A DNA stretch of 64,000 nt from Stenocarpella maydis. Lineage: Eukaryota > Ascomycota > Sordariomycetes > Diaporthales > Diaporthaceae. The stretch lies in the NCBI GenBank assembly GCA_002270565.1, contig NQMI01000076.1:62001-126000 (forward strand), read 5' to 3'. A program made the translations under genes and the position numbers. Positions 1,304 to 53,903 of this stretch are shown here, piece by piece. The stretch's first letter is position 1; each line of letters starts with the position of its first letter. The notes beneath the pieces were generated by a model, which saw only the letters and a program-made list of their open reading frames with translations, did no database searches and had not been told where the DNA came from.

Positions 1304-2283
1304 TTTGTCGGTTTGTCTGGGCAAGGGGGGGGTAAAATGTCAGTATTGAATTGGCGTGAAATCAAAACGAGCGGTCTGGGTGTGTCCGAGGTCTCACATA
1401 CCACTGTTGGGGAGTTGGGTGGACAAAGGTGCCGAGATTCTTCCTTGGGTCGTTGATGGAGTCGCTTCGCTGCGGCAGGGCGGGATGGAGATCAAAGTTG
1501 TGGTCTTGCAAAAATTCAACCGGCAGCCGGCCAGCTGCGCGCCACGTGACCTGGGAGTTTTCGAAGGCGGGCGCGGCTCGAAACAGATGGGCCAGCACCA
1601 GCCTGAGCCAAGATCCTGCTGGCCAATAAGGGTGCCGGTGCCCGACCTAGACCCACTTCTCTCTTCAGGCACTTAACATCAGGGGACGGACAGCTATGCT
1701 GCTTCCCGTGTAACACAGATGACCACAACAGGCAAGGCATAAGAGAGTCACGACGCAGCCGACCGACATAGTGCAGATCTCTAGATTCATCTGTGACAGA
1801 GCCAACGGGCGACGAGCTAGCTATAGCCAACTTTCCATCTGGCGGAAGAAGAGTTCCAAACAAACCAAACAATCCTGTGTCTATCTGAACAATGTGAGAC
1901 CCGAAATCCAGCGGCGTCCCCGACCACGCATCCGTCTCATAGACCAACATAAACAAATGCGGTCTCCTGGGTCTCCTGTCCTTCACGGTAGAGAGCCGGC
2001 ATGGCGTGAAACCACCCAACCGGCTGACAGAAGATCCAAACAAGTCGGGTGTTGCGCGATCAAGAACGATGGCTAAGCCCCATCACGCTCAATGTTAAAC
2101 ATGGCAAGCGGGCGCGCCTTGATGCGCAGGTAACAAGGGCGAGGTGCAAGTGTGCCACGCCCGCGGATAATAAAGATGTACGTAGTAACAGGAGAACTTT
2201 TCAGACCAACCCCGAAACGATTAATCAAAGAAGACATGCACAAAGAAGGATCTGTGCTGTGTGGTGGTGTAGGATTGAAGACC
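1304..2283. other. Intergenic: L37 promoter/5' UTR and 3' flank of RRM gene
   Basis: No convincing coding sequence. A 9-base G run begins near 1325, just upstream of the L37 start. A 175-codon antisense frame at 1516-2043 has no family signature and looks accidental. Confidence 0.5.
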
Positions 2284-7687: not shown

Positions 7688-10356
7688 ATGGGTCAGCCTT
7701 CCTTCCAGGCGTCCAACGCCATAGTCTACCTGACTTATGGTGCATTTCTGTGAGTTCCGGCTTTGGTCCAAGACCTCACTGTTTCCCCAAAAACCGGGCT
7801 GAACCTTTTCCTGACGTTATTCAACAGTATTCTGGGGACAACCCTGGCATGGAGATTCCGCAAAGACTCCAAGGGCGAGTTCCTCTCTGGCAACAGAACT
7901 CGGACTGGTCAGGAAGACAACATTCCCAAGGAGTAGATCTGGAATCGAAAAGGGCACACCTCGTCGAGCACAGGACCTTGTCACTTTGACTCCAGATCTG
8001 CGGTCCCCCGGCCCCCTTGCCAACATCCACTAACCTCTCTGACAGCGCTTCCGATCGCTCTGAACTTCATCGCCTCTGGTCAGTGAGATAACGCGAGGAA
8101 TCGCTTACCACCCTGTAACCAGAGCGGTAGCAGACAAGAAAGCATTACCTTGAGCACGAGAAGCCCACGAGTGACTTCCTCTCGCCAAATGGCTGCCACC
8201 TCATGGTGGCATCTGGCCGTCCGGCCGGGGCTGGGCGAGCACCTGTGAGACTGGCAATAGGTTCGTATCCAATATCCACAGTTGTCTCTGCCCTCTCAGC
8301 CGTTGCTCGGAGGACCCTTGTCCGCAGTGTTCGTTATAGGAGACCAAGGATCCGGTTTCTTCGAGTAATTGGTTTGTCAGGGCAGAGACTGCGGCTCACT
8401 ACGGGCGCGGATTTGAAGCGAGTGTACCCTCTGTGATCCAACCTCTCACTCGCCACCCGGGGAGGGGAGATCACAAGGACCTCGTGGAAATGAAGCTGAG
8501 ATTGTACCGTAATTACTCGATCAAGTTAATGCTTGCGTGGGAAACGTGCTGCCGCTCCGGTTTAAAAACCTGCCCCCTGCCTTTCCCCCCTCCGGCCCCT
8601 ATTATCCTACTGACCGACCTAGGCCTCGGATCGGGCATCCTGTTCTCCTATCCGGAGCTCGCCACCATCGCCGGTGTGCAGGGCGCTGTCACGTACGCCC
8701 TGATGTCCGCCCTGCCCTTGCTTATCTTCGCCGCTCTGGGACCCATAATCCGCCGGAAATGTCCCGAGGGCTTTGTCCTCACCGAGTGGACGCGCCAGCG
8801 ATATGGCGTTATAACGGCGCTGTGGCTAAGTTTTCTGACGCTGGTTACCATGTTCTTGTACATGGTCTCCGAGCTGTCAGCAATTGGCCAGGTCGTCAAC
8901 ACCTTGACGGGCCTGGACCCTGTAAGTCATGGACATTGAAATGGATATAATCCATCCAGTATTAGTAATACTTGCCTAAGCTTCCTACAATGATCGTGGA
9001 ATGCGTGGTTACCACTATCTACACCTGTGAGTTGTCTTGGTACGGAAGCGTGTGACGCTGGGTCCCGTGGTCTGACGACTGTATCCCTTGCAGCTATCGG
9101 CGGCTTCAAAGTCTCCTTCATCACGGACAACATCCAAGGAGCCATGGTGCTAGGCCTCATCATAGTCGCAACCATCACCATCGGCGCCAAGACTGACATC
9201 CAGCCGGGCCTCATCGAGAGCTCTGGTCTCCTCGAGCCAAGCCTACTCGGCTGGCAGCTCCTGTACATCTTCCCGGTGGCAATATTGACCAACGATTTCT
9301 TCCTCTCGAGCTTCTGGCTGCGGACTTTCGCCTCCAAGACCGACAAGGACCTCTGGGTCGGCGTCAGCATCGCCGTCGGCTGCATGCTGATAATCCTGAC
9401 GCTCGTCGGGATGTCCGGTTGTGTTGCAGCCTGGTCTGGAGCCTGGCCTGGCGAGCCGGCCCAGGAGGGCAGTGGTGAGTACCATTCTTACCCTGCTACA
9501 GTCTTCCGATCCTTGTTCCTCGGAATGTTCCAGGATGTACCACTTTGGGACCCCCGTAGCAGGTGATTAACGTGCACCAGTGGCATTCTTTCTCCTGCTG
9601 GAGCAGCTGCCTAGCTGGGTGGTTGGAATTGTGCTAGTTATGGCCGTGTCGCTATCCACCGCGTCCTTCGATTCGCTCCAATCCGCCATGGTGTCGTCAG
9701 GCTCCAACGACCTCTTCCGTAATAAGCTGAATATCTGTAAGTGCCATTCTTGTCCTGCTGCAGTTCCCCGGACTTCCAGCCTTGAGATGTTTTTAGAATC
9801 CGTCACTTTGGGACCCGCAGCAGATGATTAACGTGTACCAGGGTATATCCGCCTCGGTGTTGTCCTGCTTATCATCCCTGTGATTGTTATCGCTCTGCGG
9901 GCAATATCAATCCTGCAGATCTACCTGATCACCGATCTCCTCTCGGCCTCGACCATCCCAGTGCTTGTTCTTGGCATGAATGAGAGGCTCTATTGGTGGC
10001 GCGGCTTCGAGGTCGTCGTCGGCGGCCTGGGCGGAGTCCTGAGCGTGTTCATCTTCGGCACCATCTACTACGGCGACGCCGAGTCCGGCGCGCAGCTCAT
10101 TCTCCTGGAGCAGGGCCTGTACGGAAACGACTGGGCTGCCTTCGGCGCCTTCGTAGCTGCCCCCGTGGGCGGGCTGCTCTTTGGCTTCGTGGCTTGCGCG
10201 TTGAGGCTCTCACTCCAGTTCTTCTTGGCAAAGAAGAACGGTACGCGATTCACGGGGCTGGACCGCCATGTTGTCGAGCATGACTCTGAGACAGAGGTGG
10301 TTGTTCAGCAGAGTGAGGAGGTGCCGGTTTCCAGGCATGCTGGGAAATTCTTCTGA
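7688..10356 (+). CDS. Sodium/solute symporter family (SSF) permease
   Basis: Eight exons (7688-7749, 7828-7907, 8046-8078, 8623-8921, 8981-9026, 9094-9474, 9581-9736, 9842-10356) give 523 aa. The protein is highly hydrophobic with about a dozen membrane segments. Family landmarks are 'GNRTRTALPIALNFIASGLGSGILFSYP' split over three exons, 'PEGFVLTEWTRQRYG', 'SELSAIGQVVNTLTGLDPLP', 'TTIYTSIGGFKVSFITDNIQG' and 'LSTASFDSLQSA'. These fit fungal SSF permeases, some of which carry urea or other small solutes; the substrate cannot be told here. The tail after residue 490 is charged and cytosolic-like. Intron 3 is long (544 nt). Introns 6 and 7 are homologous to each other and to an intron in the ABC1-like gene. 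Confidence 0.88.
8079..8622 (+). other. Unusually long intron (544 nt) of the symporter gene
   Basis: The donor is GTCAGT at 8079 and the acceptor CTAG ends at 8622, with a good branch point (CTACTGAC) just upstream. The flanking exons join to restore FIASGLGSGIL. Other introns in this window are mostly 50-110 nt. I found no repeat or ORF with a recognisable product inside it. Confidence 0.75.
9475..9580 (+). repeat. Introner-like intron, copy 1 (symporter intron 6)
   Basis: This 106-nt phase-1 intron shares ordered blocks with 9737-9841 and with the reverse complement of 53579-53683. The blocks include CCGATCCTTG (9506-9515), a TTTGGGACCC block, and GTAGCAGGTGATTAAC running into the branch point. 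Inverted repeats CCTGCTAC (9492-9499) and GTAGCAGG (9556-9563) are perfectly complementary. Confidence 0.85.
9737..9841 (+). repeat. Introner-like intron, copy 2 (symporter intron 7)
   Basis: This 105-nt phase-1 intron has a first 27 bases that differ from copy 1 at five positions, all transitions. The 3' end (CACTTTGGGACCC, then GCAGCAGATGATTAACG) is also near-identical; the middle has diverged. The hairpin arms are CTGCTGC (9755-9761) and GCAGCAG (9817-9823). Confidence 0.85.
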
Positions 10357-32351: not shown

Positions 32352-34951
32352 CTAAGCTACTATGAGCCTAAATTGGTGGAAAGGCGAAGGCGCAGCCGTC
32401 AGAGAAGTCCGATCCGAGGCCGCAGGCGAGGCCGTTCCAGGAGGCACCAGCGATACGACCCCAGATATGGACCCAGCGAAGACCGTGCCTGTGGAGGTTG
32501 TCACTGAAGTAACAAGGGTCGTGTCAGTCACCACGGTGGTCCCTGTTAAGACGCAAGTAGTATTGACTGTGATGGACTCCTTGATTATCGACACTGAGGT
32601 CGGATGATGAAAGGGAGAGACTGAGAAGTTGTTAGCTTCGAGCTAATCGGAATCGGTGGGACAGCAAGATTATGGCAAGGAGTTGATGTGTAATAAATAG
32701 CAGGTGCTGTTGAGGCAAGCTAAAAACTGGTCACGAGATATTAAGGAGACGGGGGTTAGACATACCTGAGGGTGGAGCTCCAGACCCTGATGTTGAGTTC
32801 AACAACGGGAAAGGCGCCGTTTTTGTACTTGTAGAGAGTGGCGCGGCTGATTCTATCGTCGTGCCAGCTGCGGAACCCGTTGGCCATACGAGAGTACTGG
32901 AGTTGCTCAGTGTGAATGGCGGCGAGGCACTCGTTATTGATAGCGCAGCTGTCTCATTCAGGCGAGCCGACGAGGATGCTGTGCCAGCTGCGGAGCCTGT
33001 TGCCCAACTGGAATTGCTCAGTGGGAACGGCGCCGAGGCGCTGGTCGCCGATAGTGTAGCCGTCTCGCTCAGGTGAGCCGGCGAGGATGTCGCACGAGAG
33101 CTTGTGTTCTCCGTCGGTCCCGCAGCAGACAGCGATGTGTTGACAGATCCGCCTGTCGGGTGTGGAGGTGGGCCAGTGTCACTCACAACGGTCCCCGGAG
33201 CCACGGGTGCTGAGGTAGTGTTGGTGAATGGGAACGGAGGCCGGCTTGTCCTGGATTTAGGTACACTTGTTGCCACTGAGGTGGATTTGCTAGTCGTTAG
33301 GATAATTGAGGTACTGGCTATGGTGGACACCGCTGTCGGATGCGGACGTGATGCGGTGCGGCTTAAATGAGTCCTTTCGGATACAGACGCCGAGGTAGTG
33401 TTAGTGAAGGGGAACGGCGCTGAACTTGTCCCTGTTTTCGGAACACTCGTCACTGAGGTGAGGTTACCGGTCGTTAAGATAATGGAGGAATTGGTTGTGT
33501 TAGACACTGGGGACACAGTGGATGCTGTCGTCCTCGATATGGTGCTGTTCGGGAAGGCAGAAAAGTTTAAGCTTGTTGGTATAATAGGATCGGGTGTGAA
33601 GATTGATAGAGGGAATGTGCTCAGGGTAGCTATATGGGAAGTTGAGCTGACATGAATTGAGGTTGTCAACATAGATGAGGCATTCTCTGTGCGGTTTCCC
33701 ACTGATGAGGAGGCCGTAGTCTCCGTAGATATAGGCGACAGTGTGATGTGTGGAAAGCTTGTTTCGATTGTCATACTCGTGAGATTTGAGGACGGCGAAG
33801 GGCTCAAGGTCGGACTAGGTCCAGAGGTGGTCGAGTTTGCTGCTGAATTTCTCGAAAAGGAATTTCGCAGTGTAAAGCTCGATCTTGCAGAGCCGTTCAG
33901 CGCATCTGCGCTGGTCAGTGTCGTACCGAATTCTGTCGATGAGTTTGAGACTAGATTTGTGGAGGTTGGTGTGGAGTCCGGACCCGTGGTCAAGCTTGAC
34001 TTCGCAGCCGAAGTCGATGTCGATGTTGCGATAACAACTGTGGTGGAGGTGCTAGAAGTCGGTATGGTAGTTACTGTCCAAGGACCACTTGTGTCTGATC
34101 CATGGTGCGGCGGGTGCCTCCCGTGGGGGTTGCCATGTCGTGGATGCCCAGAATCCGGTTTACCATGGTGTGGGTGCCTCCAGTCCGGGTCCCTGTGATG
34201 AGGATGCCTACAGTCCGGGTTCTTGTGGTGTGGGTGGTCCCAACCTGGGCGATGCCCTGGGTGGTGCCCCGGCCAATTATGGTCGTCTCTGGATCTATGT
34301 GACGACTCATGTCCGTATTCCGGGTTGCTTGTATAGGTCGGTGGGCTCCCGCCATAGTTGTGGGAGTGTGTGTGATCAGGCAAGGATGAAGGAGGCTCGC
34401 CATAGCCTCCATAGGTGGAAGATGTGCTGGAATGATCCTCATTTGGATAGTAATCGCCTTGTGAGCTCGGTCTCTCAAATGATTCAGGATGGTGGTAAAG
34501 TTCACCACCATGCCTTTCGTCTAAAAACCCGTCGCCCGGTGACTTGGACAGAGGAATAGGCGGCTGGGTATCACCTTGGCGACTAGTAAGCATCATACTC
34601 GGCTAAAATAAAAGACACCCGGGCAGAGAACTTACCAAGCTCAGGGCTGCCCGCTGAGGTGGGTGCTGGAGTTATCAAAGTCTCCAATGGAACTGTCTTG
34701 GCCACGCTGCCCCTTCCCTGAGGCACCCCTCCAAATGGTTTAGGGCCCATGTCTACCCAGGACGGCTGAGGGAGAGTAGATCTTGCCTCTAGATCTGCGC
34801 TGTCTTGGCTGAGTTGCGTGCTGAGAGCGAAGCCCATAAGAATGAGTATCGAAACAATTATGGCACCCATTGTTGCCATACTGGTGACGGAGCGCACCAC
34901 TTTGGCGCCTAAGCGGTAATGGAGCACAGTCGGGCTGAAGTTATGGTGCAA
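32352..34951 (-). CDS. Mucin-like Ser/Thr-rich membrane-anchored protein
   Basis: Three exons (34951-34636, 34574-32766, 32620-32352) give 797 aa; an alternative acceptor at 32593 would give 788. A single hydrophobic segment at about residues 24-45 (SMATMGAIIVSILILMGFAL) follows a short basic N-terminus, so a type II signal anchor is likely. After a linker comes a His/Pro-rich region of short degenerate repeats (HPHHRDPDWRHPHHG and similar). Over 450 residues of Ser/Thr-rich sequence follow, with many Asn-X-Ser/Thr sites and diverged repeats such as 'SASAPFPLSNSSWATGSAAGTASSSARLNETA'. This predicts a heavily O-glycosylated cell-wall or surface protein. No catalytic domain is seen. The intron 1 acceptor is CCAAG, chosen because it alone keeps the frame. 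Confidence 0.8.
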
Positions 34952-52952: not shown

Positions 52953-53890
52953 TCAACCCTCAAATAATCCATGTTGAGGCTCTAGGCCTACATCTCTTAC
53001 CATCTCTGCCATGCGCGCCTCGACCTCATCTTCCATCCCGCCCCCAATGCCCAGCCACTGCCGTAACTTGAAGAAGTAGAACAGCACATCTGAGCCCCAC
53101 AGGACGGCCTTGAAGAGCACGTGTCGCCACCGGTACCTAATCCGCTCAGGCCAGGGCAGGTTTGGGTCCATGAACAAGCTCCTAGACGCCCATTCACCCA
53201 TCATCTTGACCCTGTTGACGGGTGAGCCCATGTACTGGTTGTTGCCCTGCACAATTCTCATGTTCCGCCCGATAAATATGAGCTCCTTGGGCCACTTGTC
53301 CTCGTCCGTGAGGATGTCCCTGATGCCCTGCTTCATCCGCTGCTGCATGGCGTAGCTCCTCTCGCTGGGGCTCATGCCCTCCATCATGAGGCCCCGCTTG
53401 AACTCCTGGTCGCCGCCCTCGTACGGCCGCATCAGCGTCGCGGACGCGAAGATGTCCGCGGCCTTGATACCCCACTCCTCCGTGACCTCCTTTATCTTGT
53501 CATTATCAAACGTCATCAGCGATTTCCAGAACGTCCCGTACTCGCGCCTGAACTTGGGACTCATGTACACGTACAGCCCTGTTGTTGTACCTGTTAGTCA
53601 CCTGCTACGGGTCCCAAGGTGGTACATTGGCATCCTGAGGAGCAAGGATCGGGAGACCGTAGCAAGGGGAGGATGCTGCTCACCATGGTCGATGAGCACC
53701 AGCTCCGCGCGCCCGCTGGGCAGCCGCCGGATGAAGATGTTGCCCGGGTGCGGGTCGCAGTGCACGACGCCCCACTTGAATATCTGCGCGCTGAAGAGGT
53801 CCACCATGGTGGTCATAACCTCCTTGGCCGACAGCCCCAGCCCACCACTGCCGCGCGGGCCCCTCCACTCGTTGCGCTCCGGCTTGAGCC
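52953..53890 (-). CDS. ABC1-family atypical kinase (ADCK1/Mcp2-like), N-terminus missing
   Basis: Two exons are visible: 53890-53684 (open at the 5' side) and 53578-52953. The fragment starts LKPERNEWRGPRGSGGLG. It contains the ABC1 catalytic loop and metal site VVHCDPHPGNIFIRRL and LVLIDHG, then a 200-residue C-terminal extension (LYVYMSPKFRREYGTFWKSLM... to FEG). The ATP-binding N-lobe with the KxGQ motif is absent because the sequence reaches an N at 53891 next to 12 G. These proteins are mitochondrial; relatives handle coenzyme Q distribution or membrane lipids. The kinase fold is certain; the ADCK1/Mcp2 subgroup is an estimate. The intron is one of the introner-like copies. Confidence 0.85.
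53579..53683 (-). repeat. Introner-like intron, copy 3 (ABC1-like kinase gene)
   Basis: This 105-nt phase-1 intron, read on the minus strand, matches copy 1 (9475-9580). Shared blocks are GTGAG at the donor, TTGCTACGGTC versus CTGCTACAGTC, CCGATCCTTG, ATGTACCAC with TTGGGACCC, and GTAGCAGGTGA[C/T]TAAC with the branch point. It interrupts the CAT-GGG codons of IDHGLY. The hairpin arms lie at 53659-53666 and 53601-53608. Confidence 0.85.
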
Positions 53891-53903
53891 NGGGGGGGGG
53901 GGG
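53891..53903. other. Assembly junction: N followed by poly-G
   Basis: A single N at 53891 is followed by 12 G (53892-53903). The ABC1 gene is cut here. The sequence beyond does not continue the kinase frame in a recognisable way, so this is probably a mis-join or an unresolved gap. Confidence 0.8.

Follow-up and report, generated by a model that had tools for sequence, protein, structure and literature searches.

Two genes in the window, the whole stretch of 64,000 nucleotides of DNA that was analysed, harbour three introns that resemble one another, which raises the question whether these are copies of an element that makes new introns. Spliceosomal intron gain is a long-standing question, and the case provides a fresh, testable example of new introns arising. 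The three introns are almost certainly copies of a family of introner-like elements, as the original prediction held. Their coordinates (Table 1), lengths (106, 105 and 105 nt) and GT...AG ends were given correctly, and all three are phase 1 as stated. BLASTN inside the window aligned them over most of their length, again as claimed: i6 matches the intron of the ABC1-like kinase gene (ABC1 intron) at 80.4 % identity along 97 nt (E 9e-19) and i7 at 87.5 % in the final 40 nt (E 2e-8), and i7 and the ABC1 intron reach 82.9 % in 35 nt (E 3e-5). The shared strings quoted earlier are present in the introns, and the 5 differences among the first 27 bases of i6 and i7 are indeed all transitions. Beyond these matches, searching up to E 1 returned just two 12-nt matches (E 0.7). 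That other window sequence lacks such similarity was confirmed with a profile of 48 copies, which scores the three introns at 99, 92 and 69 bits. No fourth recognisable copy of this family (family 1) was found in the window, where the profile reaches at most 5.6 bits elsewhere (at most 3.4 bits on the reversed window), and Rfam gave no match to window positions 9400-9900 up to E 1.

Table 1 Introner copies and their parts. Positions following an L number refer to that locus, all others to the window
Feature	Position	Strand	Remarks
Introner copy i6 (subfamily A)	9475..9580	+	Phase 1, sodium:solute symporter gene, 106 nt, 93 % to consensus A
i6 donor nt 5-9, 5' strand of the consensus outer near-terminal stem	9479..9483	+	From consensus A fold
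i6 inner stem, 5' strand CCTGCTAC	9492..9499	+	From consensus A fold
i6 inner stem, 3' strand GTAGCAGG	9556..9563	+	From consensus A fold
i6 branch-point element GATTAAC	9565..9571	+	Likely branch A at 9570
Exon separating i6 and i7	9581..9736	+	156 nt, open in spliced frame, within Pfam SSF match
Introner copy i7 (subfamily B)	9737..9841	+	Phase 1, same symporter gene as i6, 105 nt, 90 % to consensus B
Introner copy in ABC1-like kinase gene (subfamily A)	53579..53683	-	Phase 1, 105 nt, Pfam ABC1 spans junction
Family-2 copy	L011 1687-1850		Found by comparing flanks
Family-2 copy	L036 1674-1821		Found by comparing flanks
Family-2 copy	L048 1668-1830		Found by comparing flanks
Family-2 copy	L034 768-924		Found by comparing flanks
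Family-2 copy, diverged	L050 about 2030-2189		Found by comparing flanks

The two host genes are unrelated, as had been noted. The symporter matches Pfam SSF (8.7e-9, residues 32-340) with the intron junctions at residues 243 and 295, while a shorter piece of 241 residues gave no Pfam match. The kinase matches Pfam ABC1 (7.8e-21) across its intron junction. This ABC1 match begins at profile position 165 of 244, and an N beside a run of C is located at window position 53891, just upstream of the ABC1 exon; the 5' part of the gene may be missing or misassembled.

The search with the three introns was extended to the 53.5 Mb assembly (312 contigs) and found further copies. As queries, i6, i7 and the ABC1 intron gave 26, 16 and 8 matches, and three consensus sequences gave 40, 31 and 40, the last being 40 scored matches of 51 candidates. 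Three end patterns, allowing up to 3 mismatches, had 30, 39 and 26 matches and their reversed control patterns 0 each. All searches merged, family 1 occupies at least 63 distinct sites on 45 contigs, a lower bound. Chance similarity is ruled out by these 63 sites and the empty control patterns. One contig of 984 kb (C246) carries 8 of the 63 sites, compared to 1.2 expected. Coding context was studied for 60 copies, namely those at 57 of the 63 sites and three weaker ones, second copies in L040, L050 and L053 that were found only by profile within the fetched loci and not genome-wide.

Homology among the copies starts at the donor and stops at the acceptor. A length of 103-106 nt is found in 41 of the 60 copies; the projected ends start with GT in 52 of 60 and end with AG in 57 of 60. 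Copies without GT or AG are mostly weak, L022 has a GC donor and L044 has GG there. The 3' ends were placed by hand in L013, L014, L022, L024, L038, L039 and one copy of L040. Two subfamilies appear in alignment and tree, A (with i6 and the ABC1 intron) and B (with i7). Positions 1, 5, 77, 89, 92, 94, 103 and 104 are invariant in the 33 copies that agree with their own consensus by at least 84 %. The middle is most variable (0.17, compared to 0.06 at the 5' end), and these 33 copies show 268 transitions and 125 transversions. Six of the eight invariant positions are splice-signal positions, which supports the prediction that the copies are spliced. Consensus T92 and A94, the equivalents of the i6 branch-point positions, have 0 substitutions in the 33 copies. 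The i6 assignment is made by presumed analogy with CTRAC, and the A at 9570 is the likely branch point. Judged from the sequence, the copied unit is predicted to be a whole intron of ~104 nt carrying both splice sites and the branch point, which reached at least 63 sites. A 58-nt copy on the minus strand of L062 (404-461) has its interior deleted, with CCCG at the joint by eye; it looks like an introner decaying to ordinary intron length.

Most copies sit in coding exons of unrelated genes, oriented in sense, in line with the introner-like nature proposed for the window introns. Reading frames were called separately upstream and downstream of each copy, with codon preferences from six window frames. 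The upstream and downstream calls agree in 50 of the 60 copies, where 20 are expected by chance and 28 of 60 agree on the antisense strand; the latter is the fairer control because it comes from the same sites. The sense strand outscores the antisense strand in 58 of 60, the exceptions being L004, which by eye lies beside another intron, and the weak L069. Since frames disagree in 10 of 60 and the antisense strand is better in 2 of 60, a few non-coding copies are possible. No intergenic copies were recognised among the 60. Forty spliced pieces (the symporter and L043 twice each) were compared to Pfam: 33 matched and in 28 of these the match crosses the junction, the others being L020, L034, L036, L057 and L067. 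A few matches fall under Pfam's own cut-off (for example L023, L028 and L043). The Pfam families of the host genes differ among copies, so that similar introns reside in unrelated genes of one genome. Among the 50 frame-agreeing copies, 28 are phase 1, 11 phase 2 and 11 phase 0, a phase 1 excess with p 0.0008 against one third, not against the ordinary introns of this genome.

The insertion sites were studied in 52 of the 60 copies, 8 weak or odd ones being dropped. No exon motif was found within 10 nt of the insertion, no position exceeding 0.32 bits, and the exon base preceding the element is G in 10 of 52. Target-site duplications or direct repeats above permuted controls were likewise absent. 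GTACCA near both ends (12 of 52) was considered as a target-site duplication and rejected: it lies inside the element and is equally frequent in permuted pairs. Family 1 may thus be described, from its alignments and flanks, as a dispersed repeat of two subfamilies whose ends appear to be splice sites and which is seated in sense in coding exons, without flanking duplication.

Could the similar introns be old shared introns or parts of duplicated gene segments instead of mobile introns? One case of true tandem duplication exists. L038 and L039 (contig C246, near 880552 and 882539) are 100 % identical over 1181 nt, including the introner in an oligopeptide transporter gene, and are either a recent duplication or an assembly artefact. 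Host genes from many protein families, and the homologues without the intron at both tested loci (see below), make this explanation scarcely credible for the family as a whole. Moreover, comparison of the 120 flanks of the 60 copies (E 1e-3) confined similarity to same-gene overlaps, L038/L039, intron copies within flanks and three short stretches (18, 28 and 29 nt) common to different genes, which rules out gene duplication as the source of the copies except for L038/L039. The 29-nt match joins L055 and L070, two sugar transporters of 32 % protein identity with a copy at the same nucleotide (the Asn codon of QQxTGTN, phase 1). Their introns are 73 % identical and rank mutually only 27th and 36th of 47. 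From these sequences the pair looks like two gains at one place; an old shared insertion could also account for it.

Orthologue comparison had been proposed, and was performed at 2 of the 63 loci, L005 and L018, whose copies have long exons on both sides. Relatives lack the intron there, 59 of the 60 homologues examined reading through. For the GH78 alpha-rhamnosidase (L005), 38 of the 120 listed homologues were examined, and every one of them contains the residues flanking the site on both sides; eleven are lgn/jgi proteins that come from contigs longer than 20 kb and whose identity, 75-78 %, is like that of the named Diaporthe proteins. For the RAD5-like helicase (L018), 22 of the 120 listed homologues were examined and 21 read through; the best of those examined, at 88 % identity, is an lgn protein encoded on a 45-kb contig. 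The remaining one, annotated in Diaporthe ampelina, is missing the whole stretch and is uninformative. No residues are lost or gained at either site in Diaporthe-like homologues. Annotated proteins are spliced and carry no weight here; we infer that the lgn/jgi proteins encoded on long contigs represent unspliced frames. In coatomer gamma, lgn-only proteins from longer contigs are shortened to ~700-830 amino acids compared to 917, and the five that are full-length derive from 3-8 kb contigs, possibly transcripts. Because 59 of 60 examined homologues read through, with lgn/jgi proteins taken as unspliced, both introns look like gains.

Coatomer gamma also places the host. The window protein is 97 % identical to those of Diaporthe ampelina, D. 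eres and D. citri, 95-97 % to those of other named Diaporthe and 91-92 % to those of Cytospora, Coniella and Cryphonectria. The host is therefore close to Diaporthe, which we take to belong to the Diaporthales, class Sordariomycetes. The expectation that such elements would point to Dothideomycetes thus did not hold.

The earlier suggestion that the family is active or recently active stood in part. Both insertions tested appear to postdate the divergence of the host from its Diaporthe-like relatives in the protein database. However, pairwise identity in 48 of the 60 copies is 92.2 % for the best pair with a median of 70.9 %, a median raised by the omission of weak copies, compared to the 98-99 % cited for Dothideomycete families thought active (PMC4457414). 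In the family-1 tree, which is star-like, good support is confined to 5 of 45 inner branches. With a best pair of 92 % and a median of 71 %, family 1 appears not to be fresh.

The mode of spread was considered in the light of these results. One candidate is the DNA transposition of a short, non-autonomous, MITE-like element that splices by chance, the route of many algal introners. For it speak the dispersed repeats with an inverted-repeat tendency, the self-reverse-complement score of each family-1 consensus being reached by only 2 of 500 shuffles. The inverted repeats of both consensus sequences are interrupted and lie inside the splice sites. This route is improbable here: the 52 copies show no target-site duplication, both splice sites are inside the element so that none is co-opted, no residue was lost or gained at the two empty sites, and no intergenic copy was recognised among the 60. 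Ascomycete introner families, too, have been characterised as outliers in which TIRs and TSDs are lacking (PMC9860276). The sense-in-exon pattern points away from plain DNA transposition. Spread via RNA, by reverse splicing or a close variant, is the rather more probable route. A near-terminal stem would keep the ends of the excised intron RNA together, the RNA would be reverse-spliced into another transcript, and this transcript would be reverse-transcribed, its cDNA recombining with the gene. After insertion the copy would be an ordinary intron in which chiefly splicing signals are kept and the fold decays. Random DNA insertion would leave equally visible intergenic copies, and that none was recognised in the 60 counts for the RNA route. 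The phase 1 excess counts against it because blind reverse splicing does not predict such an excess; the clustering on contig C246 and the weak folds described below were also counted against it. Double-strand-break repair, in which intron RNA or cDNA is captured at a break and kept since it is spliceable, has been proposed for Hypoxylaceae stwintrons and is argued in PMC12403724. It is a possible but doubtful source of the copies: insertion without duplication or motif and the consensus near-terminal stem fit it, and the C246 clustering could mark break-prone regions, yet breaks outside genes would leave neutral, visible copies while 58 of 60 favour a sense coding context.

The stem invoked for the RNA route was found by folding the consensus sequences. 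The minimum-energy structure of consensus A (-34.7 kcal/mol, z -3.25) has an outer stem pairing donor nt 5-9 with nt 97-101, an inner stem of 8 bp (CCUGCUAC/GUAGCAGG) and two internal hairpins, leaving the branch-point stretch mostly unpaired. Consensus B folds weakly (-26.8 kcal/mol, z -1.48; 17 of 200 shuffles equally good), and the folding of individual copies does not surpass that of shuffles (mean z -0.18, n=60). Of the five outer-stem pairs, 3 remain in i6, 4 in i7 and 3 in the ABC1 copy. Compensatory pairing or covariation was looked for in 48 copies, 12 weak, short or duplicate ones being omitted, and was absent: 77.3 % of cells are paired compared to 77.6 % in shuffled alignments, and no measure rose above shuffles. 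Versions of the structure with slid partners do worse (at most 50 % of cells paired compared to 77 %), as expected because the structure was derived from the consensus. An RNAalifold structure from the first 24 copies was poor. As the pairs are not maintained and single copies have a mean z of -0.18, the predicted fold would at best be a property of the source, not kept by resident copies, and a role of the fold in mobility is one that we infer, the pairs not being kept by compensation.

A second repeated intron, unrelated to family 1, was found in the same genome. Family 2 is ~160 nt long (148-164) and has the form GTAAGCAGCTTCC...AAAGCTGAC..CAATGCTGCAG. In L011, L036 and L048, a family-1 copy with the same orientation lies 62-83 nt away from the family-2 copy. 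A consensus query gave 40 scored matches of 92 candidates, and two end patterns gave 47 and 38 matches with 0 in controls. Together these searches matched 89 sites on 58 contigs, some of them at a single end, and the number of conserved copies is estimated by capture-recapture at ~100-150. Frames agree in 4 of the 5 copies read, over short stretches. No family-2 copy was found in the window at the sensitivity used. In the family-2 consensus, donor nt 5-9 (GCAGC) pair with the five bases before AG (GCUGC), the whole fold being insignificant (z -0.67). Four pairs of the two families lie within 2 kb, compared to 0.42 expected (P 0.0009, with a query built from copies beside family 1). We do not claim this co-localisation to be significant, because the family-2 query came from copies near family 1 and the true copy number is unsure.

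In the literature surveyed, copying introners have been described from few fungal groups. The Dothideomycete introner-like elements of Zymoseptoria, Fulvia and Dothistroma, as described in PMC4457414, are likewise whole spliceosomal introns repeated in unrelated genes; there too, a genome holds several families, positions are new, one gene can receive two insertions, and copies degenerate after insertion. The present host is instead near Diaporthe and has 63 and 89 sites compared to hundreds. Its family-1 copies are at most 92 % identical, unlike those families, a comparison made by description and not by sequence (PMC4457414). The sister stwintrons and cropped sister introns of Hypoxylaceae and Xylariaceae are reported to show the same absence of duplication or exon motif. 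Xylariales stwintrons, which inserted without duplications, are reported to have near-terminal complementary repeats running from donor nt 5 to beside the acceptor (PMC8469720, PMC12403724); the consensus sequences here can pair bases in the same place. The repeats here are 5 bp in consensus, with a separate 8-bp stem in family 1, compared to 9-10 nt there, and read GUACC/GGUAC and GCAGC/GCUGC compared to GUAUAAAAAC/GUUUUUAUAC as listed in the stwintron comparison; the core TTCTAGAA of the stwintron central palindrome is present in 11 of 48 copies (PMC8469720, PMC12403724). Unlike stwintrons, the elements here are not nested twin introns, and they show a phase 1 excess where the accounts of stwintrons report no phase bias (PMC8469720, PMC12403724). 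The [D1,2] sister stwintrons comprise two nested introns and start with GGT, whereas 52 of 60 copies here start with GT after an exon G in 10 of 52.

DNA-transposon introners, described in Micromonas and many aquatic lineages (PMC9860276), likewise make new introns by dispersed copies; here, unlike in those, no target-site duplication was found among the copies studied, no splice site is co-opted and no intergenic copies were recognised. Fungal introners are described as biased to genes (PMC9860276), and both families fit that fungal type, adding a consensus near-terminal stem of other sequence. A literature search found no introner with Diaporthe; the main text of PMC9860276 does not mention the genus, its supplements lying outside the search. 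The genome studied here extends the list to a Diaporthe-like host, in which two unrelated families coexist and for which relatives show empty sites. Nine named Diaporthe species or strains occur among the coatomer gamma matches, and presence or absence of copies across the genus could time the insertions and separate RNA from DNA models.

The near-terminal stem common to the consensus sequences offers a concrete hypothesis for intron mobility. It might be speculated, with low confidence, that unrelated fungal introners converged on a short stem pairing donor nt 5-9 with pre-acceptor bases, the branch point remaining single-stranded inside. Such a stem would hold the ends of the excised RNA together and license copying, yet splicing would not need it. 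On this view the architecture would have arisen independently three times, in family 1, family 2 and the Xylariales stwintrons, and further insertions would land preferentially near earlier ones in the same transcript.

Some further repeats were observed. A PhoD-like phosphatase gene (L053, minus strand) carries two introner copies at 1501-1606 and about 1648-1717, with an exon between them of ~14 nt by eye. Window positions 32861-33507 contain internal repeats of 74-75 % identity over ~120 nt within a Ser/Thr-rich open frame (32731-34596, minus strand). L013 (1075-1369) and L016 (90-366) have a repeat of ~300 nt in common (82 % over 76 nt and 70 % over 123 nt), perhaps a short transposable element; where checked, all six frames contain stops.
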